Shown here piece after piece: positions 3,001 through 20,865 of a stretch of DNA of 20,865 bases. The notes under the pieces were generated by a model. The model made no database searches, had not been told where the DNA came from, and saw only the letters and a list, made by a program, of their open reading frames with translations. The number at the start of each line of letters is the position of its first letter. The stretch's first letter is position 1. The translations under genes were made by a program, and so were the position numbers. Source of the DNA: a virus; the IMG/VR virus record IMGVR_UViG_3300017732_000088, positions 1 through 20,865 of that record. One strand, written 5' to 3'.

Positions 3001-6000
3001 AAAGTTAGAGAAGTAGATATTGATGATATGAATGTTGATTTGGTTATGAAAATAGCTAGCTCACATAAAGATAGTCCTTTGTATCGAACAATTTGGGACA
3101 AGCTACATAGAAGATTAAATGAAGTTCAGGACTTAGCTTCTGGAAATGATTTTGTTGACACAGAAGCATTAGACTATATGAACGAATTACTTAACGTTAG
3201 AAGTATGTCTGATAACATATTAAAAATGGCTCCTGATATTACACCATTAATAAATAATCATAAGTGGGTAAAAAATTATTCAAGTATGGTACTAAAAAAT
3301 TATTTATTAAATAGGATAAATAAACCAAAAGAAAAATACAGTTCTAAACACATATTTTTACCTTATGATAGATACATGCAGACAAATAAACTAACTGCAG
3401 GGTTAAAACCAGGTGAAATAATAATGTACAAAGGTGCTGCTCAAGCAAAAGTAGAACTTAACGGCAAAGAAATGACTTTAGAAAAAGCATTGCAAATAGA
3501 TCCTAATTTAGAACAAGTGTTATTGCGTGTACCTGCTGACAACATTAGTGGGCAAAGAGTTGTTAAAGTAAAAGTTGTTCTTAACGAACAAGGTACTGGT
3601 ATTGTTGTGCATCCAGAAGACATGCATTTTATGGGTGGTGCAGATTTAGATATTGATAGTGGGTTTATGTATAGAAGCACACCTAAAAAATTTAGAGATG
3701 CTATTAAAAACTCAAAAGATGTAATGAAAGATGTAGATCCTACTGGACCTGAAGCAGTTGCTCAGTTTTCTAAAGGAGATATTGCAGGAATACCTACAAA
3801 AGAAATATTAAAAAACCCTGCATATATGCTCGATCCTTTTATATCAGAACAAATTGGTCACAATTCAAGAACAAACAATGTAAATCTTGGAATAGCTGTA
3901 AGCACTGGTCAAGGTTATGGAAGAATGTTAGACTATGTTTTAAATAATCCAGGTAAAGATTATAAAGCTTTTGGATTACCTAAAGAAATATTAGAAAATA
4001 CAAAAAACTTTAAAGAAACTGTATTAAATATTAAATCAACAGGTGATGTAACAGAGTATATGAAAGAAGTGCAAAAAGCTGTAAACATGTATGCTGATGC
4101 TGGAAAATTTGGTTCTTTAATGTCTGGAAGTAGATTAAAAGAAAAGATGTTTTTAGACACTGGGGTTCTTGTTTCTGTTAAAGATAAAATAACAGGTGTT
4201 TCATTTGATTTAAGTTCTGAAATGTCTCAAAAAGTAATTGATAATCATACTGTATTTGGCAAATCTCAACAATTTAAACAATCATTAAATGGTGTTTATT
4301 TTGATAATGGTGTTCGTAAACAAATGACAATTGATCAAGCTAGGGAAGCTGCTCAAGATTATTTAGACGCACTTAAAACAAATAACATTGAACCTGACTC
4401 TATGCCAGGAGTTTTAACTGTTAAAGCTGAAAAGTTATTAAACTTTGAAAGTAATAATAATTTTATTGGAAATATTAATACAGAAAAATTAAACAAACTA
4501 TACGCTGAAACAGTTGCCAGGTCTGAAAAAGATAAAATAATAACATCCTACAACAGAAGAGATCTGCAAGGAACTAAAGCAAAAAACATTAATACGTTTA
4601 AAGATTTTGTTTCAAGTGATATTGATTTTATAACTACAGTTAGAAAGCTTGAACAAACATATAAAAAAGCTAAAGAACAAATGACAGATGAGCAATTTAA
4701 AAGGATGCAAAATGATGTTCTTGACGCTGCTACAGAGCTTAGAGTTGAATGGCAATTAGAAAAATATTGGAACACTAACCGAAAAGTATTAGCAAACAAA
4801 GGTTCAGTTAAATTAGCAGATGCAATTAATAAATCTATTGAATTGCAAGCTCTTAATTTTAGAGCTGAGAGTCCCATTAAAGAACAATTATTTTATGACA
4901 TGCTTACAAGTAATGTTGTTACTGGAGTAAATCAAAAGTCAGATATACTTAGAAACAAAATGAGAAACAAACTCTTAGCAAGTCCTGCATTAAAAGGACA
5001 AAATATTAGACCAGAATTAGAAAAATTTATGGATCAATTTACTGCAGATAAATTAGATGCTTTAACTAAAGATCCTTACAGTAAAAACAAATCTATTAAT
5101 TTAGATTTAATGTATAGCGTAGACGCAATACCTCCAAAGTATTTAAAAAATCATTTTAAAATAAGACAACAAATAGAAGAATCTATACAGGGTTATACTG
5201 CACCTGTATTAGAAGTTCAAAAACAACGTAAACAACAAATACGTGAAAAAATAAGAGGTTATAATGAGGGTAAAGCCAGGCAAGAACTAATTGATAAAGT
5301 AAATAGCCAAGTGTCTAATAACGCAGAATTAAGAGAAATGCGTAGTGATTTAGAAGCTATATTAGATAGAGAACCTGAGCTTCTTGCTAAAATAGAACAA
5401 GCATTTCCTGCAATGTCTAATAGACCATATGCAACTAGTTTAATAGACAACGTGTACGGCAAAAGTTTAAAAGATGCTACAGCTGGAGATATACAAAATT
5501 TTATTAATTTTTTTAAAGAAAGAATGACAGCACAAGAATGGGTTTCTTATAAAAATAATGAACCTAAGTCTAAGAAATTATTTAATTCTGCTTATTGGTC
5601 TTTTCCTGAAACTATTGTAAATAGAGTAGGACCGTTTGATTTATCTTTTGTTCCAGTTGATGGACCTAGAAAAGTACTAGAAAATGGTAAACTTGTAGAA
5701 AAAAAAGATTTACTTGTTCCAGTATCTGGTTTTGAAAGACTTACAGTTGATAACAAAGCTGGTTCAGAAATAGTCACTGGTCTTACCGATCAATTAAACA
5801 ATTTATTTTTAAAAGGAAGATTTGATTGGCTTCAGTCTATAAACGATCAAGGAATACAGCGTTTAGCTGTTGAAGCTGCTATTGGTAAACATGAAGGAGT
5901 TAATGCTAAAAAACATAAAACATATCAAGATGGATTAGATAAAAGTTTAAAAATATTAGAAAAAATTGGTAAACAAGAATACAGTGTTACACTTGATGGT

Positions 6001-8292
6001 AAAACTAAGCCTATAACTGGTGAAAAAATAGTTGATAGATTAGCTAAAGATATTCGTGAATCAGTAGAGTTTGTTAATAAAAATTTTTTACATACAGATG
6101 TTAGTTTTAGAAATTTTTTACTTGAAGGTAAAAGAGGTGAGCCAAGAATAAGAGAAGTAATAAGAAGAAGAATACAACCTATTTTAAGAGATTTTAATAA
6201 ACGAGAATCATTACTAGAAGGTAGAATAGATAAGTCTATTAGCAATGACAACCTTTTTAAATTTATGGAATTATGGAAAAGAAGTGAACAAGTAAGAGAA
6301 TACGATGGAAGAGTTATATTAAACAGAGATTTAAAAAATTTAGATCGTGCTGAATATGATAAGTGGTTAGAGAAAAATATTAATGAAATAGATGCAAAAT
6401 ACGGAGTTGGTGAAATTGGAGAAGGATATTTTCCACATAGAAATATTCCTAAAAAAATTGTAGATGAATATATAGAATCAAAAGCTGCAGAAAAAGGAGG
6501 GTTAGATGCCAATATAGAAAGTTATTTAAAATCAGAAATTAATCTTGGCAATTTAGGCAGAGCTGATGGTGGGGCTATGCAACCTTATAACAACATTATT
6601 TTACATCAAGGAGATAGAAGTCCAGCAAGATTAAAAATAAAAGATAAAACTGCACAAACTCTATCACCTAATCAACGTAGAAGATCGGCTAATTTACCTG
6701 AATATGAAAAAAATATAAATGTTTTATCGCAATACATGGGTCAAATATTAAAAGCTAGATATAATGCACTAATGGCTTTGTCAAATGCTGAAACAATTAG
6801 AACGTTTGAAAACGCAAAATATAAAGATGGTACGCCTGTTATGGGTAGTAAAGAAAACAGACAGCATTGGGGTAGGTTTATGAGAATGACTACTTTAAAA
6901 GATATTGGAGGTCAACATATTTTACCTGAACAGTGGTTAAATGATAAAGCGTTTCCAATGAATAAATTATATACAGGATTTACAGAAGGACAATTATATA
7001 AAAGATTAAACAAAATGGGTAAGTTTTTTGGTAAAGAAGAACTGTTCTTGCCAAAAGATAGAAATGGTAAAATTACTCCTGAAGCTCTTTCTGATAGGTT
7101 AAATTGGTTAAGTAATCTTGAGGCTAGAGTTAGTACGTCTACTTTGTTATTTAATACTAGAGGTTGGGTTTATAACATGTTTGGTGGTAATGCTAACTCG
7201 TTAATATCTGCTGGTTTTAACCCAATGAAAAAAGCTTATGATTATAATTATCTCAGGTCAATAATACCTGATCCTAATTTGAAAAAAGGACAACCTGATA
7301 ATAGAGGTAAAGATTGGTTTTTAAATTGGGCTAAAGAACAAGGTGTTATAGAAACATTTTGGACATCAGAACTGTCAGCAAACAATTCTTTTAGAGCTAT
7401 TAAAAATATGAAAGGATATCATTCTTTTAGAGATGAGTTAAGGATGGCTTCAGGTCTTAAAAAAGATACAAGAACTGATAAAAGAGATGTTATGGAAGTT
7501 CTTAAAAAGTATCAAATAGATCAAAAAGCTACTGATTTAGGTGGGTTTTTTATGAAACACGCTGAACAAGAACTAAGATTACGTTCTTTTTTAGCACATT
7601 ATGTTAAAGCTAGAGAAGTTTTTGCTGCAAGGGGAGCAACGTTTACTGCTAATGATCCAGCTATATTAAAAATTGCGTTAGAAGGTACTGTTGGGAGCCA
7701 ATATCTTTATAATAATGTATCAAGACCACTTGCAACAGCAAGTCCAGCAGGTCGTATAATGAGTAGGTTTCAGTTATGGGCAGGTAATAGTTTACGATTA
7801 CGTAAAGATGTAACTAAAATGGCAGCAGATGTGGGATTTAAAAAAGGAACTGAAGAATATAAAAAATATGAGCGTATGTTGGGTGCAGATATGATGATGT
7901 TTGCAATGGCATCAATGTTACCTTATAGTATGTTTGATGCTACGTTACCACCTCCATACAATTATTATACAGAGTTTTCTCAAATGTTATATGGTACTCC
8001 ACAAGAAAAAGAAAGAGCGTTCTTTGGTACGTTACCATATCCGTTAAACGTTACAGGTCTTATAACACCTCCTAGTGCACGTTATATAACACAACCACTT
8101 GGTAATTTAATGACGGGTGATTGGGAAAGATTTTGGGATTATCAAATATATACATGGTTTCCATATGGAATGGTAATGAAGACAGGTAATGATATAATTA
8201 AATCTCCTATAAAAGCAGTAGATAAATTATCAGGGTTTCCTTTATATAGGTTAAATTACATGTCTCAAGAAAATGACAAAGAGGAAGAATAA
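1..8292 (+). CDS. Giant virion-type protein with a two-barrel RNA polymerase active-site signature (5' end outside the window)
   Basis: The frame is open from base 1 and ends at TAA 8290-8292, so the ATG at 112 is probably internal and the gene starts upstream. Residues below are counted from that ATG. A glycine-rich KOW/SH3-like stretch lies at about 302-341. The key region is R1139-V-P1141, H1167-P, then A-D1178-L-D1180-I-D1182. The order and spacing resemble the beta' double-psi barrel of cellular RNA polymerase (RAP, HP, NADFDGD) and the DFDID motif of crAss-like virion polymerases. An upstream stretch, D774-G...R and G-N-K811-G, could be the partner (beta-like) barrel, but this is weak. 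The remainder is mostly helical and charged; the last ~200 residues are hydrophobic and proline/aromatic-rich, as in ejected virion proteins. Inferred role: virion-carried, DNA-directed RNA polymerase fused to ejection or structural domains. No N4- or T7-type polymerase motifs were recognised. Calling it a virion protein is confident; calling it a polymerase is moderately so. Confidence 0.72.
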   Translation, partial: SLARTIGNFLEGTVEGATTLSAGVTEPQNTTETIARSMGSLFGFVGTFPIGGGVLATGLKVGSKALRGAKILQKSTKAKKLADFGDRAAASVSKATGDRNFVPIFSVPKWTATKTMEFVGKQAKTQDLINSYKWLQKGTRSEAMIHEAINLGLMSGMSTLTINPSNWKETYDDAFGAILSGGAMGATFGGIGNFIKIKNALNSTNPFIRKNGETVVKGMVGAVAQGMFMHAQTPDDVDIPLAEQVYEYALGAYFGANAQSGLKRAVAGNRDIITKAREKDVPISELAKDRNLSKEVQTELENLKTQEDAANNIMKSVLQERGAPLEYNPQDFYDASVTGGTHKGKAGKIIAVNEKTGRATLDLGDGRNTTIKVNNLEYREPGEVDYKPGESFIEDHTTAVSNVMELIEANRPTNTYINKSLENASYEIQKQLRDAGAPLDRLSIQRKIKEAVAGKSDYNWNSMVDSLNEKFSDVGTILNIGEKSVLNNLGRNLRKFAKSEQNKQSVDMIHLNLNSTGIALEPYGHLNAKNQVVANKRRHVAKWVGKKYTNTDPFTYNEIATREGIIETNKGLKGIVTKIFREKDLANSNWLKNKLTKDELNARYKHVRKTKDLYDSKKFVLGGNGEKDTIIFTDLQFPRTPRSNVVRAPGNYILNATKGHPELIKTIKNQQKTFTKLYNLSQKSQAQGERELGKKYTNTEYAYQNMVASKIMWIENLNQKSFKEILDANKKAVKEGKRKPYIDNAIDLNKRFPVMHASEPAWDRAVYEGLKDVENGNLKVVLVNALNKNSKARYEKIISKTLGKELDAHRDGIYVLRRDIFDAAIQDNGLPKNVASGKGTLLTTNGNKGLMLGKYAYVRATEALDASFKKDGIHGELYDTSIKQLGEREMYDVSLKKGQSVYTNSKGKELAGSVIAEEIPIIDHRMNLGVYENPIRNLSNAVSALQRWEWSYSPYMKKAGVSQKEIKDFFRELTQENFEGKESINKLLRKESKITEEELAKVREVDIDDMNVDLVMKIASSHKDSPLYRTIWDKLHRRLNEVQDLASGNDFVDTEALDYMNELLNVRSMSDNILKMAPDITPLINNHKWVKNYSSMVLKNYLLNRINKPKEKYSSKHIFLPYDRYMQTNKLTAGLKPGEIIMYKGAAQAKVELNGKEMTLEKALQIDPNLEQVLLRVPADNISGQRVVKVKVVLNEQGTGIVVHPEDMHFMGGADLDIDSGFMYRSTPKKFRDAIKNSKDVMKDVDPTGPEAVAQFSKGDIAGIPTKEILKNPAYMLDPFISEQIGHNSRTNNVNLGIAVSTGQGYGRMLDYVLNNPGKDYKAFGLPKEILENTKNFKETVLNIKSTGDVTEYMKEVQKAVNMYADAGKFGSLMSGSRLKEKMFLDTGVLVSVKDKITGVSFDLSSEMSQKVIDNHTVFGKSQQFKQSLNGVYFDNGVRKQMTIDQAREAAQDYLDALKTNNIEPDSMPGVLTVKAEKLLNFESNNNFIGNINTEKLNKLYAETVARSEKDKIITSYNRRDLQGTKAKNINTFKDFVSSDIDFITTVRKLEQTYKKAKEQMTDEQFKRMQNDVLDAATELRVEWQLEKYWNTNRKVLANKGSVKLADAINKSIELQALNFRAESPIKEQLFYDMLTSNVVTGVNQKSDILRNKMRNKLLASPALKGQNIRPELEKFMDQFTADKLDALTKDPYSKNKSINLDLMYSVDAIPPKYLKNHFKIRQQIEESIQGYTAPVLEVQKQRKQQIREKIRGYNEGKARQELIDKVNSQVSNNAELREMRSDLEAILDREPELLAKIEQAFPAMSNRPYATSLIDNVYGKSLKDATAGDIQNFINFFKERMTAQEWVSYKNNEPKSKKLFNSAYWSFPETIVNRVGPFDLSFVPVDGPRKVLENGKLVEKKDLLVPVSGFERLTVDNKAGSEIVTGLTDQLNNLFLKGRFDWLQSINDQGIQRLAVEAAIGKHEGVNAKKHKTYQDGLDKSLKILEKIGKQEYSVTLDGKTKPITGEKIVDRLAKDIRESVEFVNKNFLHTDVSFRNFLLEGKRGEPRIREVIRRRIQPILRDFNKRESLLEGRIDKSISNDNLFKFMELWKRSEQVREYDGRVILNRDLKNLDRAEYDKWLEKNINEIDAKYGVGEIGEGYFPHRNIPKKIVDEYIESKAAEKGGLDANIESYLKSEINLGNLGRADGGAMQPYNNIILHQGDRSPARLKIKDKTAQTLSPNQRRRSANLPEYEKNINVLSQYMGQILKARYNALMALSNAETIRTFENAKYKDGTPVMGSKENRQHWGRFMRMTTLKDIGGQHILPEQWLNDKAFPMNKLYTGFTEGQLYKRLNKMGKFFGKEELFLPKDRNGKITPEALSDRLNWLSNLEARVSTSTLLFNTRGWVYNMFGGNANSLISAGFNPMKKAYDYNYLRSIIPDPNLKKGQPDNRGKDWFLNWAKEQGVIETFWTSELSANNSFRAIKNMKGYHSFRDELRMASGLKKDTRTDKRDVMEVLKKYQIDQKATDLGGFFMKHAEQELRLRSFLAHYVKAREVFAARGATFTANDPAILKIALEGTVGSQYLYNNVSRPLATASPAGRIMSRFQLWAGNSLRLRKDVTKMAADVGFKKGTEEYKKYERMLGADMMMFAMASMLPYSMFDATLPPPYNYYTEFSQMLYGTPQEKERAFFGTLPYPLNVTGLITPPSARYITQPLGNLMTGDWERFWDYQIYTWFPYGMVMKTGNDIIKSPIKAVDKLSGFPLYRLNYMSQENDKEEE

Positions 8293-8504: not shown

Positions 8505-9413
8505 ATGTACAAGAACAATGGATCCTATTATACAAGCGTACAGCTTAATGGATTAAGATTACAGCGTAGTTTACATACCAAGAACAAAAAAACTGCAAAG
8601 GTTAGAGAGCCAAAGGTTCGTAACCTATTATACAATCAGATACTAACAGGTAAAGTTGATCCCAGGAAAAACAATCCTGGTTTAAAAGCTATGGTTGAGT
8701 TGTTCTTAAGAAAAAAAAGATTAGATAAAGTGTCTCCTAACACTTATAACACTTATAAATATACCCTAAGACCTTGGGTAAAAAAACAAAGTCTTCCTGA
8801 AAATAAAAATACTGCGATGAGTTGGATGAGAATGCTTAATGCATTTTACAATTGGGCTAATAAAGAATTTAAAGATACTGATTTCGAATTATATACTGAT
8901 ATTGGTCAAGCTATTAGGTCAAGAGTATTTACGGGGGGAGAAAAGGGGGGAATCTTGGGGGGATTAGTTGATTGTGGTGTTGTTGTTGAGGTTGGGAGTT
9001 TGTGTGATTTTCAGGATTTTGTTAGGTTAGCTTATTATACAGGCTGCAGACGTGCAGAGTTAGCGGGACTTTCTTTTAAGGATATTCACAAAGATAAGAT
9101 GTTAGTTAGGGGGAAGACAGGTGAGAGATGGGTTAAGTTGAATCCTCAAGCTAGAGGAATATTACAAGAAAGAAATAGTTTATGGGATTATAATTTAGAT
9201 TGGATATCTAAAACATTTAGCAGATGTATGTTTGCTATGGGGATTGAAGATGCAATATTTCACGACCTTAGAAGGACGTTTGGATATGACCTAATAGTTC
9301 AGGGAATGCCAATATACCAAGTTAGTAAACTGTTGGGTCATAGAAGCGTAGTGACCACTGAAAGACACTACGCTCCACTTTTAGCTACCGAAGTAGATGA
9401 TTTTATACTATGA
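8505..9413 (+). CDS. int: Tyrosine recombinase (phage integrase)
   Basis: This 302-residue enzyme should catalyse site-specific recombination between attP and a host tRNA-Leu gene. The N-terminal ~45 residues look like a small arm-binding domain (G-S-Y-Y then a basic N-G-L-R segment). A SAM-like core-binding domain follows at about 55-120. The catalytic domain shows the full set of residues: R182 in TGCRRAEL, K204 in RGKTG, H253-x-x-R256 in FHDLRRT, H279 in LLGHR and nucleophile Y289 in ERHYAP. The ATG at 8505 has a GAGG five bases upstream. Residues 144-152 are a Gly-Gly repeat encoded by three G6 runs. The gene reads away from attP, and its stop overlaps by six bases the end of a convergent microprotein gene. 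Confidence 0.93.
   Translation: MYKNNGSYYTSVQLNGLRLQRSLHTKNKKTAKVREPKVRNLLYNQILTGKVDPRKNNPGLKAMVELFLRKKRLDKVSPNTYNTYKYTLRPWVKKQSLPENKNTAMSWMRMLNAFYNWANKEFKDTDFELYTDIGQAIRSRVFTGGEKGGILGGLVDCGVVVEVGSLCDFQDFVRLAYYTGCRRAELAGLSFKDIHKDKMLVRGKTGERWVKLNPQARGILQERNSLWDYNLDWISKTFSRCMFAMGIEDAIFHDLRRTFGYDLIVQGMPIYQVSKLLGHRSVVTTERHYAPLLATEVDDFIL
8933..8962 (+). repeat. Three G6 runs at an exact 12-bp period inside the integrase gene
   Basis: G6 runs occupy 8933-8938, 8945-8950 and 8957-8962, separated by AGAAAA and AATCTT. They encode GG-EK-GG-IL-GG in the linker between the two integrase domains. Such runs stand out in this AT-rich genome and are prone to slippage; they could also form a G-rich DNA or RNA structure. 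The reading frame is intact here. Confidence 0.85.
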
Positions 9414-12875: not shown

Positions 12876-14723
12876 CTAGTATTTAAGACCTGCTGGTTCG
12901 TTTATTACCTGAGTAAAATTAAAGGTATTAAAATCAAATGTGATTTGAGTGTCAAATGGCTGGTTGTCTCTACTTTTTGAAGAATAGAAATGTCTAGTAT
13001 TAGATGTTTCTAAACCATCTAAACTCCATACGTGGTCTGCTTTTTGACCGATTGCGGCACTACCCATGCCACTATGTTTATGACGCTTACCATTTGTTTG
13101 TCTGACTCTATCTGATTCTGACTTTGGTATGTGTGATATAGCTATTACAATGAGGTTTTGTCTCTGTGCTATTTCACGCAAAGCTGCTATAGTAGTATCA
13201 AGTTTAGATTTTTGATCTCCACTATAGTGTTCTGTAGTTACACAATCTAATGTGTCAACAATTAGAACTTGAGGCATTTCTTCTGACGCAATTCGTTTTA
13301 ATCCCATTACACTTGGTGCATAATCAGTTACTTTTATGTTTTTTAATATATCTCCATATGCTAAAGATCCGTTTGAGTAACTATTATCTATCTCGTGGGA
13401 TGTTCTTGATTCTGCAATCTGTCTAAATCTTCTCCATAATAAATCATATGAAAACTCTGGACTGATGTACATTGTTTTTAATGGTAGTCTACATACAAAG
13501 TTTTGAGTAAAAGCTGTTTTACCCATACCTGTATCTGCTAGAATAACTGCTAATTCTCTAGGACGTACCCAATATTCACGACCAACATTAATAACTTTGT
13601 TTAAATCTATTCCTGGGTTTGTTTTACGCTCTTCTATCATTTTACCATACATTTCATGCATCTGATCAGAAGAGTAAACTGGAATTAATGGGTCATTGCC
13701 ACGTTTCTTACTAGAAAAGTAAATACAACTGTTTTTACAGTTAGCATCCATTAATTCATCAATACAAGTATACTTACGGTCATTGAAGTAGATGTATTTA
13801 GTTACTTCTACTGCTTCTGATTCATCAAAACCATCGCTCATCAAAGACCAGTCTTTTGCCATTGCAAGTGCAGCAGAAAAAGGAATGCCATTGCGTCTAT
13901 AATAAGAAATAATTCGTAATAAAGTATTACGTCTATTGCCAGATGTAGGACCATTTCGATACATTTGTTGTACGCATGGTGCTATCTGGTTTGGAGTAAT
14001 ATGATCATCAGATAACTCTGTTGATCTACTTACTACTTTCTTGTTTTCCTTTAAATTATTGATAATAGGACTCATTATCCTAGTTTTAATTTCAGTAGGA
14101 ACAATATTTACTTTTCTGAGTATATTTTTTAAAGAACCTTTGTTAGATGCTAATTGATGTATTTCTTTTGCTGTATAATTAAATAACTCATCCATTGTTA
14201 GAGGTATTTTTATGAGATTTGTTTTTTTATTAATAGTGTATCCACAACGTATTAATCTTGTTTTATCATAAATATTGTCAGCCAATGGAAAGTGTTTTAA
14301 TAAAGTATTTTTAACTACTCTTGGTAAGTCTACACCTGGTTCAAATTGGTAGATGTTTGGTAATGTAATATGGTAACCACTACCACTAAACCAAGGTATA
14401 ACATGTGATTCTGGTATATCCATACCATAACACATATCATTTACAAACTCTTTTGTTTTATCAAGAATTTCTTCGTCTGAACTGTCTCCTCTGTCAATAT
14501 CTAAAACAATTTGATTGATATATGCTTTACCGTCAAATCCTTTCAAAGTATTATATTTCTTTTGGTGCTCAATTATCTCTTCATCAAAACGATAATAACT
14601 AACATATAGTTCTTGATGTTCTTGATTATTTGCTAATTCTATATACTTTGTAATATCAGTGACGGGTATAATGTTTCCTCTGTTGCTAGGTGATCCTAAA
14701 GCAACTTCTGTGTATAGTATCAT
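12876..14723 (-). CDS. AEP primase fused to a DnaB/RecA-like replicative helicase
   Basis: Primer synthesis and duplex unwinding are combined in one 615-residue protein. Residues are counted from the ATG at 14723. The primase part has the archaeo-eukaryotic signature: D75-I-D77 (hhDhD) and S-G-S-G-Y-H118 with ITLP after it. Then C250, C320, C329 and C333 sit in a helical context (APCVQQMY...GNRRN; Y-x-C...C-x3-C) resembling the PriL-type iron-sulphur domain. The helicase part has Walker A ADTGMGKT (396-403), Walker B VLIVDTLD (486-493), a SHIPK sensor and a late GSAAIGQKADHVW motif. An in-frame TTG at 14831 would extend it into the SSB gene. That extension would code through a 12-bp hairpin, while the ATG at 14723 has AAGGA seven bases upstream, so I chose the ATG. 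Confidence 0.85.
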   Translation of the reverse strand: MILYTEVALGSPSNRGNIIPVTDITKYIELANNQEHQELYVSYYRFDEEIIEHQKKYNTLKGFDGKAYINQIVLDIDRGDSSDEEILDKTKEFVNDMCYGMDIPESHVIPWFSGSGYHITLPNIYQFEPGVDLPRVVKNTLLKHFPLADNIYDKTRLIRCGYTINKKTNLIKIPLTMDELFNYTAKEIHQLASNKGSLKNILRKVNIVPTEIKTRIMSPIINNLKENKKVVSRSTELSDDHITPNQIAPCVQQMYRNGPTSGNRRNTLLRIISYYRRNGIPFSAALAMAKDWSLMSDGFDESEAVEVTKYIYFNDRKYTCIDELMDANCKNSCIYFSSKKRGNDPLIPVYSSDQMHEMYGKMIEERKTNPGIDLNKVINVGREYWVRPRELAVILADTGMGKTAFTQNFVCRLPLKTMYISPEFSYDLLWRRFRQIAESRTSHEIDNSYSNGSLAYGDILKNIKVTDYAPSVMGLKRIASEEMPQVLIVDTLDCVTTEHYSGDQKSKLDTTIAALREIAQRQNLIVIAISHIPKSESDRVRQTNGKRHKHSGMGSAAIGQKADHVWSLDGLETSNTRHFYSSKSRDNQPFDTQITFDFNTFNFTQVINEPAGLKY

Positions 14724-14739
14724 AATTATTCCTTGTAAA

Positions 14740-14789
14740 ATAAAGGGGTACTTAGGGTTGAATTTGAACATGTCAATGTACCCCTTTAT
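14740..14789 (-). promoter_or_regulatory. 12-bp perfect stem-loop between the SSB and primase-helicase genes
   Basis: ATAAAGGGGTAC (14740-14751) and GTACCCCTTTAT (14778-14789) are exact reverse complements around a 26-base loop. Read on the minus strand, the stem starts 13 bases after the SSB stop and is followed by TTTAC and the ribosome-binding site of the primase gene. It could act as a partial terminator, an RNase processing site or a translation control. The T-run is too short for a strong terminator. Confidence 0.6.
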
Positions 14790-14802
14790 CAGCGGGAGCC
14801 AA

Positions 14803-15438
14803 TTATCCCATGAACTTTGTTGAATTATCAAAGCTCAAATTTCCTTGGGGTAAATCATCTTTCTGCATCCATGCTTCTTGAGATGAACCATTGCTAACTT
14901 GATTAGGTAAAGAATCGCCTGGATCATAATTGTTTGTCCAGCCACCTTTATCTATTCTAGCTCTGTCTTTTAAGAAGTCTTTTTTAATTACTTCTTTTGG
15001 AGCATTAACAGGGTAGAAACGATTCCAAGTTGCAAACTTTCCGTCTTTCTTTTTATAGTTTATAAAAGAAACTTCTTTATTTAATAAACTAGTAAGAATT
15101 TCTTGAGTTAATTTATTATTAACTAACTCTCCAGCAATTCCTGCAGCTTGAAATAACTTTTGTACTTTGAATGCACCACCCCAGTCAACTACTGACCCAG
15201 TGTGATCTTTTCTAAAGTTACCACTAACAGTTACTTTTTTAGGGTATTGTAAACCATCAATAGCAATTTCTAATAAAACTGCTATATCCCATTTAACATC
15301 ACCGTTTCCAAAATTAACTACTTCATCTGATGTATCAACTGCACTTTTAATTGTGCCTTTGTTATACCAAACATTATCGCCAAGATTGTTTTCGCTCCCT
15401 GAGTCACTTCCATTTCCTGTAAAGGATAAATTAGCCAT
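14803..15438 (-). CDS. Single-stranded DNA-binding-like protein
   Basis: A 211-residue protein with a central strand-rich domain. Strands such as DIAVLLEIAI, KKVTVSGNFR, EVSFINYKKKDGKFATWNRF and a helix FKVQKLFQAAG are as in phage OB-fold binding proteins found beside Sak4. The termini are glycine-, serine- and asparagine-rich and look disordered. It lacks the classic acidic D-D-x-P-F tail, ending FDNSTKFMG instead. The ATG at 15438 has GGAGG eight bases upstream and overlaps the Sak4 stop by eight bases. The role as SSB partner of the recombinase is inferred from context and fold pattern; sequence families of such proteins are very diverse. Confidence 0.6.
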   Translation of the reverse strand: MANLSFTGNGSDSGSENNLGDNVWYNKGTIKSAVDTSDEVVNFGNGDVKWDIAVLLEIAIDGLQYPKKVTVSGNFRKDHTGSVVDWGGAFKVQKLFQAAGIAGELVNNKLTQEILTSLLNKEVSFINYKKKDGKFATWNRFYPVNAPKEVIKKDFLKDRARIDKGGWTNNYDPGDSLPNQVSNGSSQEAWMQKDDLPQGNLSFDNSTKFMG

Positions 15439-16339
15439 TTAAGACCTCCATAGTTTGTTGTTTATTGTTTGTAGCTCCATTTGTAGAAGGTACTTCTGGA
15501 GCTTTTTTTACTTGATTAACTACATTAGACGGCTTTAGTGCTGCCTCTATAATTGTGTTGTAGTCAAATTCAAATACTTTATTGTGTAGATTTGGTATTC
15601 TCGAACCAATTGTACGTTCATCATATGCTTCAAATGACAATACTGGTTTTTGAGTTTCTTTATCTACTGTTGAGTAACCAATTGCATCAGCTATAGCAAC
15701 TAGTTTTTTACCTAAACCTGCAGGTAAAGCAGGGGAAAGTTGTACTTTATTGTCAGTTATCTGAGTTTCTTTACTATGACTAACAAGAACTAATGTTTTA
15801 CCAGTTCTTTTTACATAGTTTTGAAATTCTGCTACAATATCAAGCGTAATTTCTCTTGCTTTACTCCAACCAGCACCAAATGCTGCATCTCCAAGTTCAT
15901 CAATCTTTAATTCAGCTTTTACTTGTGCTTCAGCCCAATCATTTAATTTGTCTACTGTATCAATTACAATAGTGTCAAATGGTAGTCCTTCTTCACTATG
16001 CATAGCCTGGATAATTTCTCCCATACTATACACTGGCATTGGCTGACCTCTATGCTTTCCATTTCTATATACATATCCACGTTCTGTAGGAGGAACAACT
16101 TCTATTTTATCTCTTTGCTTTCTTTTAGGTGGATAAATGGATAATATTGGTACTACATTAGCGTTATCTAAGAAATCTGTACCAAGGTCAGTATCGAGAA
16201 CTATTGTCCCTTCTGAGCCTATTTTAGACCACTTACTTAGCTGTGTAGTTTTACCTGTTTTTGGTTGTCCGATGACATACCATGTAAGACCAGACATCAT
16301 TGTTTCTGTGTCTAGTTTTGTTTTGATTATTTCAATCAT
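15431..16339 (-). CDS. Sak4-like RecA-fold single-strand annealing ATPase
   Basis: The 302-residue protein has Walker A GQPKTGKTT (24-32), an LDTD strand end (48-51), Walker B IVIDTVD (124-130) and a LVLVSHSK motif (183-190), all within a RecA-like core. A proline/asparagine-rich tail follows residue 270. This matches phage Sak4 (AAA_24-type) proteins, which promote annealing with an SSB partner; the SSB-like gene follows directly with an eight-base overlap. The ATG at 16339 has GGGAG upstream. It is the first gene after the terminator-like hairpin, so it probably opens the replication transcript. Confidence 0.82.
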   Translation of the reverse strand: MIEIIKTKLDTETMMSGLTWYVIGQPKTGKTTQLSKWSKIGSEGTIVLDTDLGTDFLDNANVVPILSIYPPKRKQRDKIEVVPPTERGYVYRNGKHRGQPMPVYSMGEIIQAMHSEEGLPFDTIVIDTVDKLNDWAEAQVKAELKIDELGDAAFGAGWSKAREITLDIVAEFQNYVKRTGKTLVLVSHSKETQITDNKVQLSPALPAGLGKKLVAIADAIGYSTVDKETQKPVLSFEAYDERTIGSRIPNLHNKVFEFDYNTIIEAALKPSNVVNQVKKAPEVPSTNGATNNKQQTMEVLNG

Positions 16340-16466: not shown

Positions 16467-17354
16467 CTATTGGGTTAAGTTGTAATTAGTGTCGCATTTG
16501 AGCATCATAGATGGGAAGTTGAACACTAAATTGGTGTTGGATGGACTACTTGAATCAACCAATTTTCTTACTTGATTGTTAATAAATGCACCTGCCATAG
16601 ATGCACAATAATTAGTTGATCTTGCGTTACAAGGTTCACTATCTCCGTCTTCATCTGAGTACCATTTTGTTAAATAATCTTTTTTAAATAACTCTAAATA
16701 CGCATTTCTTTTTTCATAGTAATCTTCTATTAATTTTTGTCTTTCAGTGTATGCAATTCCACCATGATTTTCTGCTAAAGCATTTATTTTTTCAGTATAA
16801 TCATCGAATATTTGTTGTTGATCTGTTTTTGGAATTATTTGCCATTGATACATTTGAAATGTTTCACTTCCCATTCTAGCATCAATAACATATTGATCAC
16901 ATGTTTTAAACTTGTGATTATATTTAAAGTTTGTTACAATTTTTTCTACAATGTCTTTTCTTCCTTCCATGTTATCAATTCCAATTATAACAAAGTATTT
17001 TTTTTGATTCTCAAAACTCATTTCTCTAGCTGCTCTATAATCATAATAAAACCTAGTCCGACTCCAAGGATTAAATTTTTGTCTTAACATATCAATTTCA
17101 CAATTAGGGTTTATAGCATTCATTTGTTTACGCAACATTTTTACTTTACTGTTGCCAATATGAGTTAAATCATAGTGTTGTACACCTATGTTTACAGGAT
17201 CTACTGTATCTGGATCCCATAACATAAACTTAGTAGCTCCAGCTCTTGCTAAATTCATTGCTGTATAACTACCAATTGCACCACATCCTATAATTTCAAA
17301 ATAATGATTCTGTAACTGGAATATGTTTTGAAATCTTTGAGTAATCTGGCTCAT
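16467..17354 (-). CDS. E1/ThiF-like ubiquitin-activating adenylyltransferase
   Basis: The 295-residue protein should adenylate the C-terminal glycine of a ubiquitin-like protein. It shows the E1 superfamily nucleotide-binding fold. The signs are G23-C-G25-A-I-G28 in a Rossmann turn, W-D47-P-D-T-V-D-P-V-N55 at the next strand end, IGNSK70 with the conserved lysine, and IIGID127-N. Cysteines C242 and C250 in a late PCNARSTNYCAS segment, before an FINN helix, are candidates for thioester or metal sites and recall the PRTRC-type ThiF ending. The usual N-x-x-R-Q arginine is replaced (NIGVQ, V58). The ATG at 17354 has AGGAG five bases upstream, so its 59-base overlap with the JAB gene appears real. 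Confidence 0.88.
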   Translation of the reverse strand: MSQITQRFQNIFQLQNHYFEIIGCGAIGSYTAMNLARAGATKFMLWDPDTVDPVNIGVQHYDLTHIGNSKVKMLRKQMNAINPNCEIDMLRQKFNPWSRTRFYYDYRAAREMSFENQKKYFVIIGIDNMEGRKDIVEKIVTNFKYNHKFKTCDQYVIDARMGSETFQMYQWQIIPKTDQQQIFDDYTEKINALAENHGGIAYTERQKLIEDYYEKRNAYLELFKKDYLTKWYSDEDGDSEPCNARSTNYCASMAGAFINNQVRKLVDSSSPSNTNLVFNFPSMMLKCDTNYNLTQ

Positions 17355-18378
17355 CTAATTCTCCTAGTTCTTGTTCAACAACAATATCATCTATTGTCGT
17401 AATGTCTTCTAAAGTTGGTGGGTTATGAAGTTTAACATCAGTTGATTCTTCATTGTACAATGTAACTGCTTGGTTTATTTCTTTTAATGCTAGCTCGTGT
17501 TTAGTGTCGCCAACATTAAAACTTTCTATATTTGTATTTATTACAGATTCTAACTCTGAAAGAAATTCTTCAGTTGTTTCAAATTTATAATCTGATCGTT
17601 TTCTTAATGCAGTTTCTAGTTTTTTTACACGTTTTTTTCGTGGTTTAGGTTTGGGGTTAGGTTCATCAAGTTCTTTTTGCAGTTCTAATGCTTCTTGATT
17701 CATTTCTTCCATATCATAACCTGAAAATGACTCATTAAATAAATGTTCATCTTCATGTCCATATGGTAAACCATTACTTAAATCATCTTGATTAAAAAGT
17801 GGCAAGTTTTCATTATGTCTATAATAACTATTACTAAATTCAACTTTCTTTTCTTTAACAATGTTTTCTTTTATTTCATCTTTTAAATCAAATTCTTTAT
17901 TACCTGTAAAGATTAAGTCAACATCTGTTTTAATGATTTGTTTTCTACCAAAAGAAGAATCAATAGTTTCTGCAAATATAGCTTCATGTTCTGCTTTATT
18001 ATTTACAACAATAGCAAATACAGAACCATTTTCTGCAAACTCTTCAATGGTAGCATGATCAGTTCCTGACCAAAAAGCTTTCATTGTATGATGTGAATGC
18101 CACCAGCAAAACATAAATTTGCCTTGTTTAATTAACTCTTTATTGTCTTTTATGCAACTTCCTATATATTTAGATATAGCTGTTTTATGTAACGTTGTTG
18201 TTGCAGAAGAACAATCTTGTTTAAATATCACTGGTTCTTGCATAGTGCATTTATCATTTTCAATAATAACTGGTGCAAAACCTGATATTTCTGTTTTATA
18301 TAAATCATATGCTTGTCTGGCATAAGCGACCATTTTATTATAATGGTCTTGATTTAAATGTAGTTTTAAATTTTTCAT
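17296..18378 (-). CDS. JAMM/JAB isopeptidase-like protein with a long acidic extension
   Basis: The N-terminal domain (about 1-160) has the complete JAMM zinc-protease set: E30 in TEISGF, then H94-S-H96, seven residues, S104, two residues, D107. Known JAB enzymes remove or trim ubiquitin-like modifiers, so this is the expected deconjugase of the neighbouring E1 and ubiquitin-like genes. Residues ~165-360 are a second, unrecognised region: acidic and low complexity, with a basic P-K-P-K-P-R-K-K-R patch at 242-250 and helical segments. Its ATG overlaps the preceding TGA as ATGA. The tail runs 59 bases into the E1 gene. An E2- or adaptor-like function in the C-terminal half cannot be excluded. 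Confidence 0.87.
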   Translation of the reverse strand: MKNLKLHLNQDHYNKMVAYARQAYDLYKTEISGFAPVIIENDKCTMQEPVIFKQDCSSATTTLHKTAISKYIGSCIKDNKELIKQGKFMFCWWHSHHTMKAFWSGTDHATIEEFAENGSVFAIVVNNKAEHEAIFAETIDSSFGRKQIIKTDVDLIFTGNKEFDLKDEIKENIVKEKKVEFSNSYYRHNENLPLFNQDDLSNGLPYGHEDEHLFNESFSGYDMEEMNQEALELQKELDEPNPKPKPRKKRVKKLETALRKRSDYKFETTEEFLSELESVINTNIESFNVGDTKHELALKEINQAVTLYNEESTDVKLHNPPTLEDITTIDDIVVEQELGELDEPDYSKISKHIPVTESLF

Positions 18379-19790
18379 TCTTCTTCCTCATTTGTCATGT
18401 TTGTGGGATCTGATTCATCAATATAAAAAAGTTCATGATCTTTCCAATTAATTATGTATTTAGCATCCATTTTTATAAGCGTATCTATCATTGATACATG
18501 CATTGAAGTCATAGTATCAATTTCTTTTCTACATCTGTATAAATGTCTTAATTCATATAAAAGACCTTCGTCTGAATACCATCCATTATTTATACAATCA
18601 AAGAATGTTGGATGTGCTTTTAATATTTTTGATAACAAGCTCTTAAACATTAAATAATCTCTATCAATTAATTCTATCTTTTCAGAATCAGGTATTATTT
18701 CAGAGTTATTTTGTTTATAAGCATGATGATGTACAGATTCTAAATCCATTGTTTTTTTACATTCTGTAAACACACAAGAACGACATCCTTGCCTTAATGC
18801 TTCAATTTCTGAACTTCTTAGATATCCAGTTCTATTTCCTCTTCTTACTTCAGGAACGGCACAATAACTTTCTTTCATCATGCTAGTTGGTGTATTTACT
18901 GTAAATCTTTTTACTTTATACTCTTGCATTAAATTACCTGGATTTCGATACGGGTTTGCTAAACCTTGATTGTAAACTGTAGCCCAAGTACTAATAAAAG
19001 AGATATATCTAGTAAGATTACCTTCTTTGGTTATTTCTCTAAATTCTTCAGATCTGTCTCCTAAACAACCACTTACAGGACTATTAGAACCTCCACGATT
19101 GCCTGTTGTAAACATACAAGCTCCAGAAAACTTAAAAGAACTACTTAACACATCCTCAGTTATCATAGAGCTTAATATTGTATCAAACTGATTTTTATAT
19201 AACAATTCTAAATCAATATCTACAATAGGTATTTCTATAGTTTGAAGGATAGAGTTAGTATTTAATTTTATATTAAATGGTCTATCATTTGTGTTTTTAG
19301 GTATATATTTAATTGTAGGGTCATAATATATATAAAGCTGTATTTTATAAATATTTTTATCTCCTACAACATTATTACCTTCATGATTTATGTTATGTAT
19401 ATATCTGTATTCAACATTTTTTATACCTGGTATTTGTTTTAAGTTGTCAAAAGTAGTTCTAATCTGTTTTGCTATTTGATTTAAAACATCTGTACCTTTC
19501 TTTTGTAATTGGTATTTTTGTACATTGTTTTCTATCCATAATAGTGATTTGAATTGTCTACTATTTACAACTTCTTTAACGCTGCTTAGTATTCCAGCAG
19601 TTCCTTCTGCAGGTTTACTTTTTAGTTGTTTAATGACTCTATAGTAGTTTTTACTTTTTTGATTAGAGTCAGTATATTGTTTAACTGAGTTAAATCCCAT
19701 GGTGCGTATGACTGCAGTAACTGCTTTATCATATTTAAACCATGATTTAGTTAGTAACTCACTTAAACTTTTTATGTTTTTGCTTTGCAA
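18375..19790 (-). CDS. Unknown protein in the ubiquitin-like cassette, candidate E2-like transfer enzyme
   Basis: The 471-residue product is not securely recognised. Residues are counted from the TTG at 19790. A helix (about 101-122) is followed by strands (YRYIHNIN, YKIQLYIYYDP), then S-G-C242-L-G-D and a helical stretch (about 260-275, ISFISTWATVYN). The order helix, strands, G-x-C-L-G, helix resembles bacterial E2-like (UBC/RWD) domains, with C242 as candidate thioester cysteine; the usual upstream H-P-N/H is missing. A second cluster, C310 and C336-x2-C339-x4-C344 before H-H-H, may bind metal. TTG was chosen because a perfect AGGAGG lies six bases upstream; TTG 19820 and ATG 19805 lack one. 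Its start overlaps the preceding gene by 32 bases and its stop overlaps the JAB start. Confidence 0.6.
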   Translation of the reverse strand: MQSKNIKSLSELLTKSWFKYDKAVTAVIRTMGFNSVKQYTDSNQKSKNYYRVIKQLKSKPAEGTAGILSSVKEVVNSRQFKSLLWIENNVQKYQLQKKGTDVLNQIAKQIRTTFDNLKQIPGIKNVEYRYIHNINHEGNNVVGDKNIYKIQLYIYYDPTIKYIPKNTNDRPFNIKLNTNSILQTIEIPIVDIDLELLYKNQFDTILSSMITEDVLSSSFKFSGACMFTTGNRGGSNSPVSGCLGDRSEEFREITKEGNLTRYISFISTWATVYNQGLANPYRNPGNLMQEYKVKRFTVNTPTSMMKESYCAVPEVRRGNRTGYLRSSEIEALRQGCRSCVFTECKKTMDLESVHHHAYKQNNSEIIPDSEKIELIDRDYLMFKSLLSKILKAHPTFFDCINNGWYSDEGLLYELRHLYRCRKEIDTMTSMHVSMIDTLIKMDAKYIINWKDHELFYIDESDPTNMTNEEEE

Positions 19791-19983
19791 GTCTAGCCTC
19801 CTCATATTTATCAGCAACAATGTTCATTTGCTTTAATAGTTTATTTGCAACCTTTTTGCTTTTGCCTCCACTTTGTTTATTTTTAGCAATCATTAGGTCC
19901 CATTTTTCTTGAAGTGTAAGAGAATCATACTTAGTTTGACGCTCTTCTGCTTCTTGACGTTTCTGCTCTTTTGATTTAGCCAT
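19759..19983 (-). CDS. Small lysine-rich protein, 74 residues
   Basis: A very basic, probably all-helical protein (MAKSKEQKRQEAEER... to ...RLAKQKHKKFK) without cysteine. I do not recognise it. AGGAGG lies seven bases before the ATG at 19983, so this start is preferred to the in-frame one at 20013, which has no ribosome-binding site. Its start overlaps the stop of the membrane microprotein by eight bases, and its end overlaps the candidate E2-like gene by 32. Many lysines make it a possible conjugation substrate or nucleic-acid binder, but that is speculation. Confidence 0.75.
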   Translation of the reverse strand: MAKSKEQKRQEAEERQTKYDSLTLQEKWDLMIAKNKQSGGKSKKVANKLLKQMNIVADKYEEARLAKQKHKKFK

Positions 19984-20125
19984 TTGTTTTACCTCCTGTA
20001 ATCCAGAATACAAACATTATTAATGTTATTGAAGAGAATATTATCATAAACATTCCTAAGCCTAAAAAGAATAGGTTCAGGATCCATTCTGATAAGTTGA
20101 TTATCATATTATCTAGTATTATCAT
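19976..20125 (-). CDS. 49-residue membrane microprotein
   Basis: The predicted protein has one long hydrophobic stretch (about residues 14-42, rich in Ile, Phe, Leu and Met) and a short polar tail ending GGKTNG. AGGAA lies nine bases before the ATG at 20125. Its last eight bases, ATGGCTAA, contain the next gene's start codon, and its own GGAGG (encoding Gly-Gly) serves as that gene's ribosome-binding site. This supports real translation. Role unknown; a membrane anchor or small lysis protein is possible. It resembles in size and style the microprotein at 9408-9524. Confidence 0.55.
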   Translation of the reverse strand: MIILDNMIINLSEWILNLFFLGLGMFMIIFSSITLIMFVFWITGGKTNG

Positions 20126-20148
20126 TATTTCATTTCCTTATTGTTAGT

Positions 20149-20370
20149 GTAAGACAGCCACGTTGAGGATGCGGGTCCAATATGTGTGGCTGCCTTACTG
20201 TTGAGTTTATGTGAGAGCTAGCCCCTAAGAGTGCTACACTCTTTAACCGTGTATGTTTATAGTCTGACAGACCTATCGTCATAGGAACGTTTACTGCCCA
20301 GCATTTTCACAGAGTTATGACAGTTAGATATAGTCAATTTTACCTTCTCTGTTCATCGGTGACTCTCACA
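20149..20370 (-). ncRNA. Candidate structured RNA or leader between the ubiquitin-like gene and the membrane microprotein
   Basis: This 250-base gap is visibly less AT-rich than its surroundings. A 13-bp stem pairs 20186-20198 with 20149-20161. Read on the minus strand it has one G-U pair, whereas on the plus strand the same position is A-C, which favours a minus-strand RNA. CTCTCACA (20363-20370) pairs exactly with TGTGAGAG (20210-20217), closing a ~160-base domain. Inside it are AAGAGTG/CACTCTT (20227-20243, 3-base loop), CCTAT/ATAGG and ACAGAG/CTCTGT helices. It does not match tmRNA, RNase P, SRP RNA or a tRNA by eye. It may be a regulatory leader, a free small RNA or a packaged RNA. Confidence 0.5.
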
Positions 20371-20375
20371 ATTAA

Positions 20376-20759
20376 TTAACCTCCAGTTTTATTTCTCGCT
20401 ATAAGAGAATAAACATCATCTGGGTTCATATCATCACTCATTGACATAAACTGACTGCTACTATTTTGAACTTCAGTTTGTTCAGGGTCTAGACCTTGTT
20501 CTTTAACAAAGTCTCCAACTGTTCTTGCTGAAGTAGTTACTGTAGTAAAACTAGATCCGTCAATTAATGTGGTTACCTCATAAGGGGTAACTGGATCTTC
20601 AATGTTATCTACATTAGTTTGAACTTGATTTACATAAGATTCAACTACAGTCTCTTCAGGTGTTGAAAACTCTTCAGTAACATTTGTTACTGGTGTTACT
20701 TCAACTGGTTCTTGTGGGATTACTTCTTCTATTTCTTCAATGTTATTATTATCTTGCAT
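20376..20759 (-). CDS. Ubiquitin-like protein with a C-terminal Gly-Gly
   Basis: The 127-residue product ends ARNKTGG. The N-terminal ~50 residues are acidic, rich in Glu, Val and Pro, and look disordered. The last ~72 residues follow the beta-grasp order. Two strands (YEVTTLIDG, SFTTVTTSA) lead to a helix (TVGDFVKEQGL), a strand (TEVQNSS) and a turn (MNPDD). The last strand (VYSLIARN) runs into the Gly-Gly tail. The TVGDF and PDDV elements recall ThiS/MoaD-type proteins. The free Gly-Gly needs no processing and would be the substrate for the nearby E1-like enzyme. The ATG at 20759 is preferred because AAGGAG is seven bases upstream; the ATG at 20765 is one base from it. Confidence 0.7.
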   Translation of the reverse strand: MQDNNNIEEIEEVIPQEPVEVTPVTNVTEEFSTPEETVVESYVNQVQTNVDNIEDPVTPYEVTTLIDGSSFTTVTTSARTVGDFVKEQGLDPEQTEVQNSSSQFMSMSDDMNPDDVYSLIARNKTGG

Positions 20760-20865
20760 GTACATGCTCCTTATTTATGATTACATCATTTAATGCTGAT
20801 GTTATTATTGGGTTTGATACGCTTTTTTTAATGAAAAGCGACTTATTTTTACCGTTCTTTAAAAA
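20749..20865 (-). CDS. 3' end of an unidentified upstream gene
   Basis: One minus-strand frame is open from the window edge to TAA 20751-20749 (38 residues, ending KEHVHAR). The other two frames are closed early. The stop overlaps the ubiquitin-like gene start, the same coupling style as elsewhere. A 7-bp inverted repeat (CGCTTTT 20820-20826, AAAAGCG 20834-20840) lies inside it. Too little is visible to name it, and an open frame this short can occur by chance. Confidence 0.4.
   Translation of the reverse strand, partial: FLKNGKNKSLFIKKSVSNPIITSALNDVIINKEHVHAR

Follow-up and report, generated by a model that had tools for sequence, protein, structure and literature searches.

A probable ubiquitin-like conjugation cassette encoded beside the replication genes of uncultured phages

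The IMG/VR virus record IMGVR_UViG_3300017732_000088, which represents a marine phage and was analysed over 20,865 bases that are referred to here as the window, encodes a four-gene cassette that probably constitutes a phage-encoded system of ubiquitin-like conjugation and deconjugation, a reading that joins an observed gene set, gene order, motifs and synteny to a chemistry that we infer. The cassette comprises a ubiquitin-like modifier (Ubl), an E2-like protein, a JAB/JAMM metalloprotease and an E1/ThiF-type activating enzyme, encoded by intact open reading frames (ORFs) on the minus strand and transcribed in that order. An earlier note on this DNA had described the E1, the JAMM protein, a Gly-Gly protein and a candidate E2 as overlapping genes of one orientation beside replication genes; the grouping and the orientation hold, and so does the overlap between E1 and JAB (59 nucleotides) and between JAB and E2 (4 nucleotides), whereas the Ubl gene is set 0.56 kb from the E2 gene, across an interval that holds a 49-amino-acid membrane-like ORF and another of about 75 amino acids.

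The Ubl (20376..20765, minus strand, 129 amino acids) has a C-terminal domain that is confidently predicted to adopt the ubiquitin-type beta-grasp fold. It matches the Pfam family DUF348, 'G5-linked ubiquitin-like' (6.8e-4), and its AlphaFold2 model is disordered to about residue 50 and resolves the last 70 or so amino acids (approximately 60-129) as a well predicted beta-grasp domain, in which the predicted local distance difference test score (pLDDT) is mostly about 85-93 per 10-residue block and 69 in the last block. Foldseek searches with this model retrieved Mth1743 (1ryj), TtuB (5gha), a bacterial Ubl solved in complex with a deubiquitinase (8tyx), SUMO and the Caldiarchaeum ubiquitin, and VIA-align comparison with ubiquitins gave Z of about 9, so that the beta-grasp-like protein of the earlier note is upheld by fold prediction as well as by its terminus. 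The protein ends in IARNKTGG, with the Gly-Gly already exposed, and K126, G128 and G129 are invariant in 20/20 aligned homologs. In viral relatives the K-x-GG-type end is followed by no residues (four loci), by 1-3 (most) or by 7-21, and the Gly-Gly is thus exposed or exposable in the window protein and its relatives alike. Such tails resemble those of ubiquitin-family precursors and fit maturation by proteolysis, for which the cassette has a JAMM enzyme of its own as a candidate; because the window Ubl already ends in Gly-Gly, JAB would there act only in removal.

The E1 (16467..17354, minus strand, 295 amino acids) has a single adenylation domain that matches Pfam ThiF at 4.8e-20 and possesses a full adenylation site; its first description as an E1/ThiF-like enzyme holds. 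The ATP-site residues GxGxxGS 23-29 (G23/G25/G28), D47, D49, N55, K70, D127 and R132 are conserved in 74-75 of 75 homologs, and D158 and R160 in nearly all of them. A C-terminal cysteine, Cys242 (codon 16629-16631), is kept in 74/75; the sequence that follows it is, we presume, like that after the catalytic cysteine of UBA5, the profile alignments ending before it. The family profile matches UBA5, UBA6, ThiF and Cap2, and the best NCBIfam matches of the window protein are to ThiF/MoeB. In a tree of E1 sequences, rooted at the midpoint only and with long deep branches, the 60 IMG/VR rows form one group (support 99/99) apart from the rows of crAss/Fpv phages and of metagenome-assembled genomes (MAGs).

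The JAB protein (17296..18378, minus strand, 360 amino acids) matches Pfam Prok-JAB at 1.4e-4, which is below that family's own cut-off, and its family profile identifies in the PDB the Rpn11-like protein of Caldiarchaeum (6fjv, 2.7e-7) as well as Rpn11, CSN5 and AMSH; on these profile matches, its nearest solved relatives appear to be deubiquitinase-type JAMM enzymes. The zinc site, a JAMM glutamate followed by HxH-x7-S-x2-D, is complete in the window protein: E30, H94, S95, H96, S104 and D107, which had been noted as intact, are invariant in 20/20 homologs. No fold was assigned to the C-terminal 190 or so amino acids.

The remaining protein (18375..19820, minus strand, 481 amino acids; translated from a TTG at 19820 or from a later ATG, the start codon being uncertain) received no family name from Pfam, PHROGs, NCBIfam or PADLOC, and is probably E2-like on the evidence of motif, profile and context. 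Among the ORFs directly upstream of JAB, one cysteine is invariant in all 47 aligned sequences and is followed at position +2 by glycine in nearly all; most also carry HP[YFH] about 10-40 residues N-terminal to the cysteine, and W and P C-terminal to it. In the window protein the cysteine is Cys252 (codon 19065-19067), within GCLGD, with W279 and P290 downstream. E2 homologs in MAG cassettes bear motifs of the type HPHVSxDGxPCLGN, and link the viral family to known enzymes in two steps: hhalign of the viral family against the MAG proteins gave a probability of 94 (E 1.5e-7), and the MAG profile in turn matched eukaryotic ubiquitin-conjugating (UBC) enzymes at E 0.036, with HPHVS-dG-CLG superposed on HPNVYADGSICL. 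The candidate E2 of the earlier note is therefore retained as E2-like on its invariant cysteine and profile chain, with a poor fold model. Exactly four cysteines follow the core in many members of the family (C320 and C346-x2-C349-x4-C354 in the window), possibly a zinc-binding module that could serve target selection. The deltaproteobacterial E2 homolog of MAG locus L102 (6484-7962) ends in tandem cysteine-rich repeats with the C-x2-C-x4-C spacing of the phage tail.

The arrangement is conserved in related phages. A search of viral contigs with the JAB alignment found 262 relatives, of which 80 were fetched, and 49 loci with at least 3.5 kb of sequence upstream of JAB were used to count synteny: Ubl was present in 49/49, E1 in 48/49 and E2 in 47/49, and all four genes in the order Ubl-E2-JAB-E1 in 46/49. 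No locus carried E1 and JAB without the Gly-Gly protein, the arrangement that the earlier note had named as contrary to its proposal, and the shared gene order that it had suggested looking for in related phages is present. Among the misses, the contig of L060 ends before E1, and L028 has an ORF of the E2 cluster further upstream. The linkage of Ubl to the cassette is more than chance, given that ends of GG plus 0-5 amino acids occur on 37 of 1157 other small ORFs (3.2%). Because similarity to JAB was the criterion for choosing the loci, part of which also went into the profiles and some of which lie on near-duplicate contigs, these counts measure linkage and not prevalence. As queries against viral contigs, the E2 and Ubl alignments recovered just the three close contigs; tblastn against GenBank phages gave no match for the window E2 or for the Ubl of the marine phage L048, and one weak match for the L048 JAB. 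The JAB alignment identified 12 relatives among 84,980 cellular genomes, all on MAG contigs.

Comparison with two close relatives indicates that the cassette genes are maintained under purifying selection: the ratio of nonsynonymous to synonymous substitution rates (dN/dS) is about 0.2-0.4 for all four, and as low as 0.1 between the two relatives themselves. The cassette proteins are 41-61% identical to those of L003, and the products of the downstream replication genes 84-88%; dS relative to L003 is also higher across the cassette than across the next genes. This divergence fits either a host-driven process or the swapping of the cassette as one unit.

CBASS type II (cyclic oligonucleotide-based antiphage signalling system) consists of an E1-E2 fusion (Cap2) plus a CD-NTase, and was rejected as an identification: the window encodes E1 and E2 separately, and the window proteins that were scanned do not include a nucleotidyltransferase. 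PRTRC systems place ThiF E1, JAB, E2-like and Ubl genes in a context of plasmid replication and maintenance, and the window likewise ties these four classes of gene to replication; PRTRC was also rejected, on scores of 21.9 against 144.75 bits for the NCBIfam ThiF model and 15.1 against 101.8 bits for A, with no match to B or C, and a search for PRTRC_C in 379 genomes of one phylum found none above the cut-off. In the bacterial defence operon Bil, BilD combines an inactive and an active adenylation domain with an inserted cysteine domain, BilB has a CEHH motif and BilA has two Ubl domains (PMC11354881). Bil and the window are alike in grouping separate genes for Ubl, E2, JAMM protease and E1, and the window Ubl matches the fold of the bacterial Ubl of PDB 8tyx; they differ in that the window E1 has one adenylation domain and not the two of BilD, Cys252 is followed by CLGDRSEEFREITKEG with no histidine at the CEHH positions, the modifier has one Ubl domain where BilA has two, and the carrier is a phage. 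Identity with Bil was rejected on these features of E1, E2 and Ubl; PADLOC matched neither E2 nor JAB nor Ubl of the window to Bil, and the 25 families that it listed for E1 do not include Bil.

The Caldiarchaeum ubiquitin operon, which includes a RING E3 (PMC11354881), supplies the closest solved relative of JAB in its Rpn11-like protein and, in its ubiquitin, one of the fold matches of the Ubl, whereas no E3 was recognised in the window cassette. Phage-borne Ubl and JAB proteins are represented by tail assembly proteins I and K of lambda and T1 (PMC1779556), a pair that belongs to tail morphogenesis and lacks the E1 and E2 that the window possesses. Bacterial operons with E1, E2, JAB and Ubl were described by Iyer and colleagues (PMC1779556), and the window cassette is best regarded as a viral version of this kind of operon. 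A search of the open-licence literature, which takes in few subscription journals and so does not prove novelty, retrieved no paper on phages that encode E1, E2, Ubl and JAB together.

Matching cassettes occur in phages of other groups. In the Crassvirales, crAss001 (gp79-gp76), bajarodcaudo virus 1 and cr126_1 encode a Ubl-like protein, an E2-like protein, JAB and ThiF in the same order; the crass-like Ubl has a beta-grasp-like N-terminus ending in KKI[KR]SG, fused to a long tail, and the E2-like motif is MHSH..PC[TL]GxGPI. Flavobacterium phage Fpv1 (gp58-57-56/54-53) has a matching cassette in the same order. The crAss001 and Fpv1 cassettes resemble that of the window in order, with a Ubl-like N-terminus, an E2-like protein (here with M-H-S-H..C-x-G), JAB and ThiF, and in their setting, beside primase and uracil-DNA glycosylase genes; they differ in the fusion of Ubl to a long tail, and their annotations go no further than hypothetical protein, metalloprotease and thiamine biosynthesis. 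The JAB of Fpv1 (L093, 5184-5933) is interrupted by an oppositely oriented endonuclease gene, which separates an N-terminal gp56 from a catalytic gp54 with HSHNTM, as would be produced by insertion of a homing endonuclease. Xanthomonas jumbo phage PhiXhv-15 encodes, between DNA ligase and topoisomerase genes, a Ubl-like protein ending in SGG, an 892-amino-acid protein with IHPHMAV..LCLGS, and ThiF; no JAB was identified at this locus. The cassettes of crAss001, cr126_1, Fpv1 and PhiXhv-15, like that of the window, lie among replication genes. The standalone MAG cassettes (L096, L097, L100-L102) have the window order Ubl-E2-JAB-E1 and homologous proteins; their E2 lacks a Pfam E2 name, their E1s fall outside the 60-member IMG/VR clade, and one of their Ubl homologs matches ThiS. 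Some of these contigs may be cellular and some viral. An 8-kb contig binned as Lokiarchaeota (L096, 1716-4884), which may be viral, encodes a Ubl (..SVKGGRA), E2, JAB and E1 in the window order.

The gene next after E1 in the window encodes a Sak4-like single-stranded DNA (ssDNA)-annealing ATPase, a recombinase (15431..16339, minus strand; PHROG 124 at 1.4e-28, AAA_24), and Pfam and PHROG scans identify further on a primase-helicase with a DnaB-type C-terminal domain (12876..14831, minus strand). The placement beside replication genes that was claimed for the window is thus real, and it recurs across loci: downstream of E1, the cluster to which the window primase-helicase belongs is found in 58/70, a RusA-like resolvase cluster in 22/70, and Erf- or Sak4-type ssDNA-annealing clusters in up to 55/70, a count that adds clusters of 29, 18 and 8, possibly overlapping. 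Between Ubl and E2, the 49-amino-acid hydrophobic ORF MIILDNMIINLSEWILNLFFLGLGMFMIIFSSITLIMFVFWITGGKTNG (19976..20125, minus strand), likely a single-pass membrane protein, is conserved in the three nearest relatives, with its DNA conserved in four contigs; it sits just after a hairpin, and its end overlaps the next small gene, a K/E-rich ORF of about 75 amino acids (19759..19983, minus strand; start taken at MAKSKEQ) found in the closest relatives only. The arms of the hairpin are near-perfect over 13 bases (20149-20161 and 20186-20198; GTAAG[G/A]CAGCCAC and GTGGCTG[C/T]CTTAC), and the element is nearly identical in four contigs, the changes in L003 looking compatible with pairing; the window, hairpin included, matched no Rfam family, and a tRNA scan of it was likewise negative. 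On the plus strand, a giant ORF of 2726 amino acids (112-8292) contains GGADLDIDSG, reminiscent of the DxDxD loop of RNA polymerases, and has no PHROG match; it is possibly a virion RNA polymerase or a polyvalent protein. A tyrosine integrase is also encoded on the plus strand (8505-9413), and the phage may therefore be temperate.

The proposed pathway has four steps: the E1 would bind ATP, adenylate the C-terminal glycine of Ubl and take Ubl as a thioester on Cys242; Ubl would move to Cys252 of the E2-like protein, the cysteine-rich tail of which may help to choose the target; the E2-like protein would join Ubl to target lysines, a step for which no dedicated E3 is recognised in the cassette; and the Rpn11-like JAB would strip the tag and, in relatives with a tailed Ubl, also trim the precursor. 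The likeliest targets would be products of the genes that follow the cassette, namely the phage's own proteins for ssDNA recombination and replication, or else host partners displaced by them. Their constant proximity makes the ssDNA-annealing, SSB-like (single-stranded DNA-binding) and primase-helicase proteins the first candidates, although assignment of the target to phage replication or recombination proteins is a guess from synteny, which we put forward as tentative.

Several observations weigh against this interpretation. The window E2-like protein is without the HPY/HPH element found in most of its homologs. Its full-length structure prediction is poor (pLDDT 58.7), for which reason the label 'E2-like' was chosen, from motif, profile chains and context; whole-protein Foldseek with this model found no E2, and its similarity to TSG101-UEV (Z 4.7, 5.2 Å over 115 residues) is within background, as is that to UbcH5b (Z 3.3). 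Profiles of the crAss E2 (probability 5.9) and crAss Ubl (19.6) gave no convincing match to the window families, so that gene order and motifs are the basis on which they are equated. Sulfur transfer, too, employs E1s and Ubls of this type, and shared expression may be all that the proximity to replication genes reflects.

Four other explanations were weighed, and rank in likelihood as counter-defence, superinfection exclusion, sulfur transfer and virion modification. Counter-defence or host takeover, in which Ubl would be put on host proteins such as defence sensors or replication factors, or JAB would strip host Bil or CBASS tags from phage proteins, is rather unlikely but the foremost of the four. 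The much lower identity to L003 of the cassette than of the replication genes is what would be expected of a host-facing function, and proteins of these classes are turned against phages by Bil and CBASS II (PMC11354881, PMC10097602); however, dS is also raised across the cassette, so that module exchange could explain the divergence, nearly all loci keep the complete set and not JAB alone, and the neighbours are consistently replication genes. It is improbable that the cassette serves superinfection exclusion, as a Bil-like antiviral system tagging structural proteins of competing phages: the gene set is that of Bil (Ubl, E2, deubiquitinase and E1; PMC11354881) and the integrase would permit action in a lysogen, but the cassette lies inside the replication block and not in a moron-type position, and the E1 and E2 hallmarks of Bil are absent, in keeping with the PADLOC results above.

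Sulfur transfer, in which E1 and Ubl would function like ThiF/ThiS or MoeB/MoaD in cofactor biosynthesis or in tRNA or DNA thiolation, with JAB as processing enzyme, accords with the ThiF/MoeB matches of E1, with the resemblance of the Ubl fold to the sulfur carrier TtuB and with the ThiS match of a MAG homolog. It is nonetheless very unlikely: scanning of the adjoining genes turned up no rhodanese, ThiG, MoaE or thiolase family, nearly every locus has an E2-like protein with the invariant cysteine, and the nearest matches of the JAB profile are deubiquitinases. Equally slight is the prospect that Ubl is attached to capsid or tail proteins, steering assembly or being packaged; Bil is reported to act on phage structural proteins, which offers a precedent, but the structural genes here are not adjacent to the cassette and lie on the opposite strand.

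Ubiquitin-like conjugation thus remains the preferred reading, and a conserved cassette beside replication genes suggests that phages tag proteins during infection. In bacteria, complete sets of E1, E2, Ubl and deubiquitinase have been recognised chiefly in defence against phages (Bil and CBASS II), and here phages own one: tagging machinery otherwise best known from human cells and bacterial antiviral defence is kept across a large uncultured marine phage lineage, alongside replication and recombination genes. Because matching genes, labelled as thiamine biosynthesis, metalloprotease or hypothetical proteins, are present in the cultured phages crAss001, Fpv1 and PhiXhv-15, the role of a phage Ubl tag can be tested in the laboratory now. 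More speculatively, unrelated phage lineages (the large marine group, Crassvirales, Flavobacterium phages and Xanthomonas jumbo phages) might each run their own Ubl signalling on ssDNA-annealing recombinases, ssDNA-binding proteins or primase-helicases, by means of an E2 family that the profile libraries searched do not recognise. If this is true, viruses would have a counterpart of the way in which ubiquitin and SUMO regulate DNA repair in eukaryotes.

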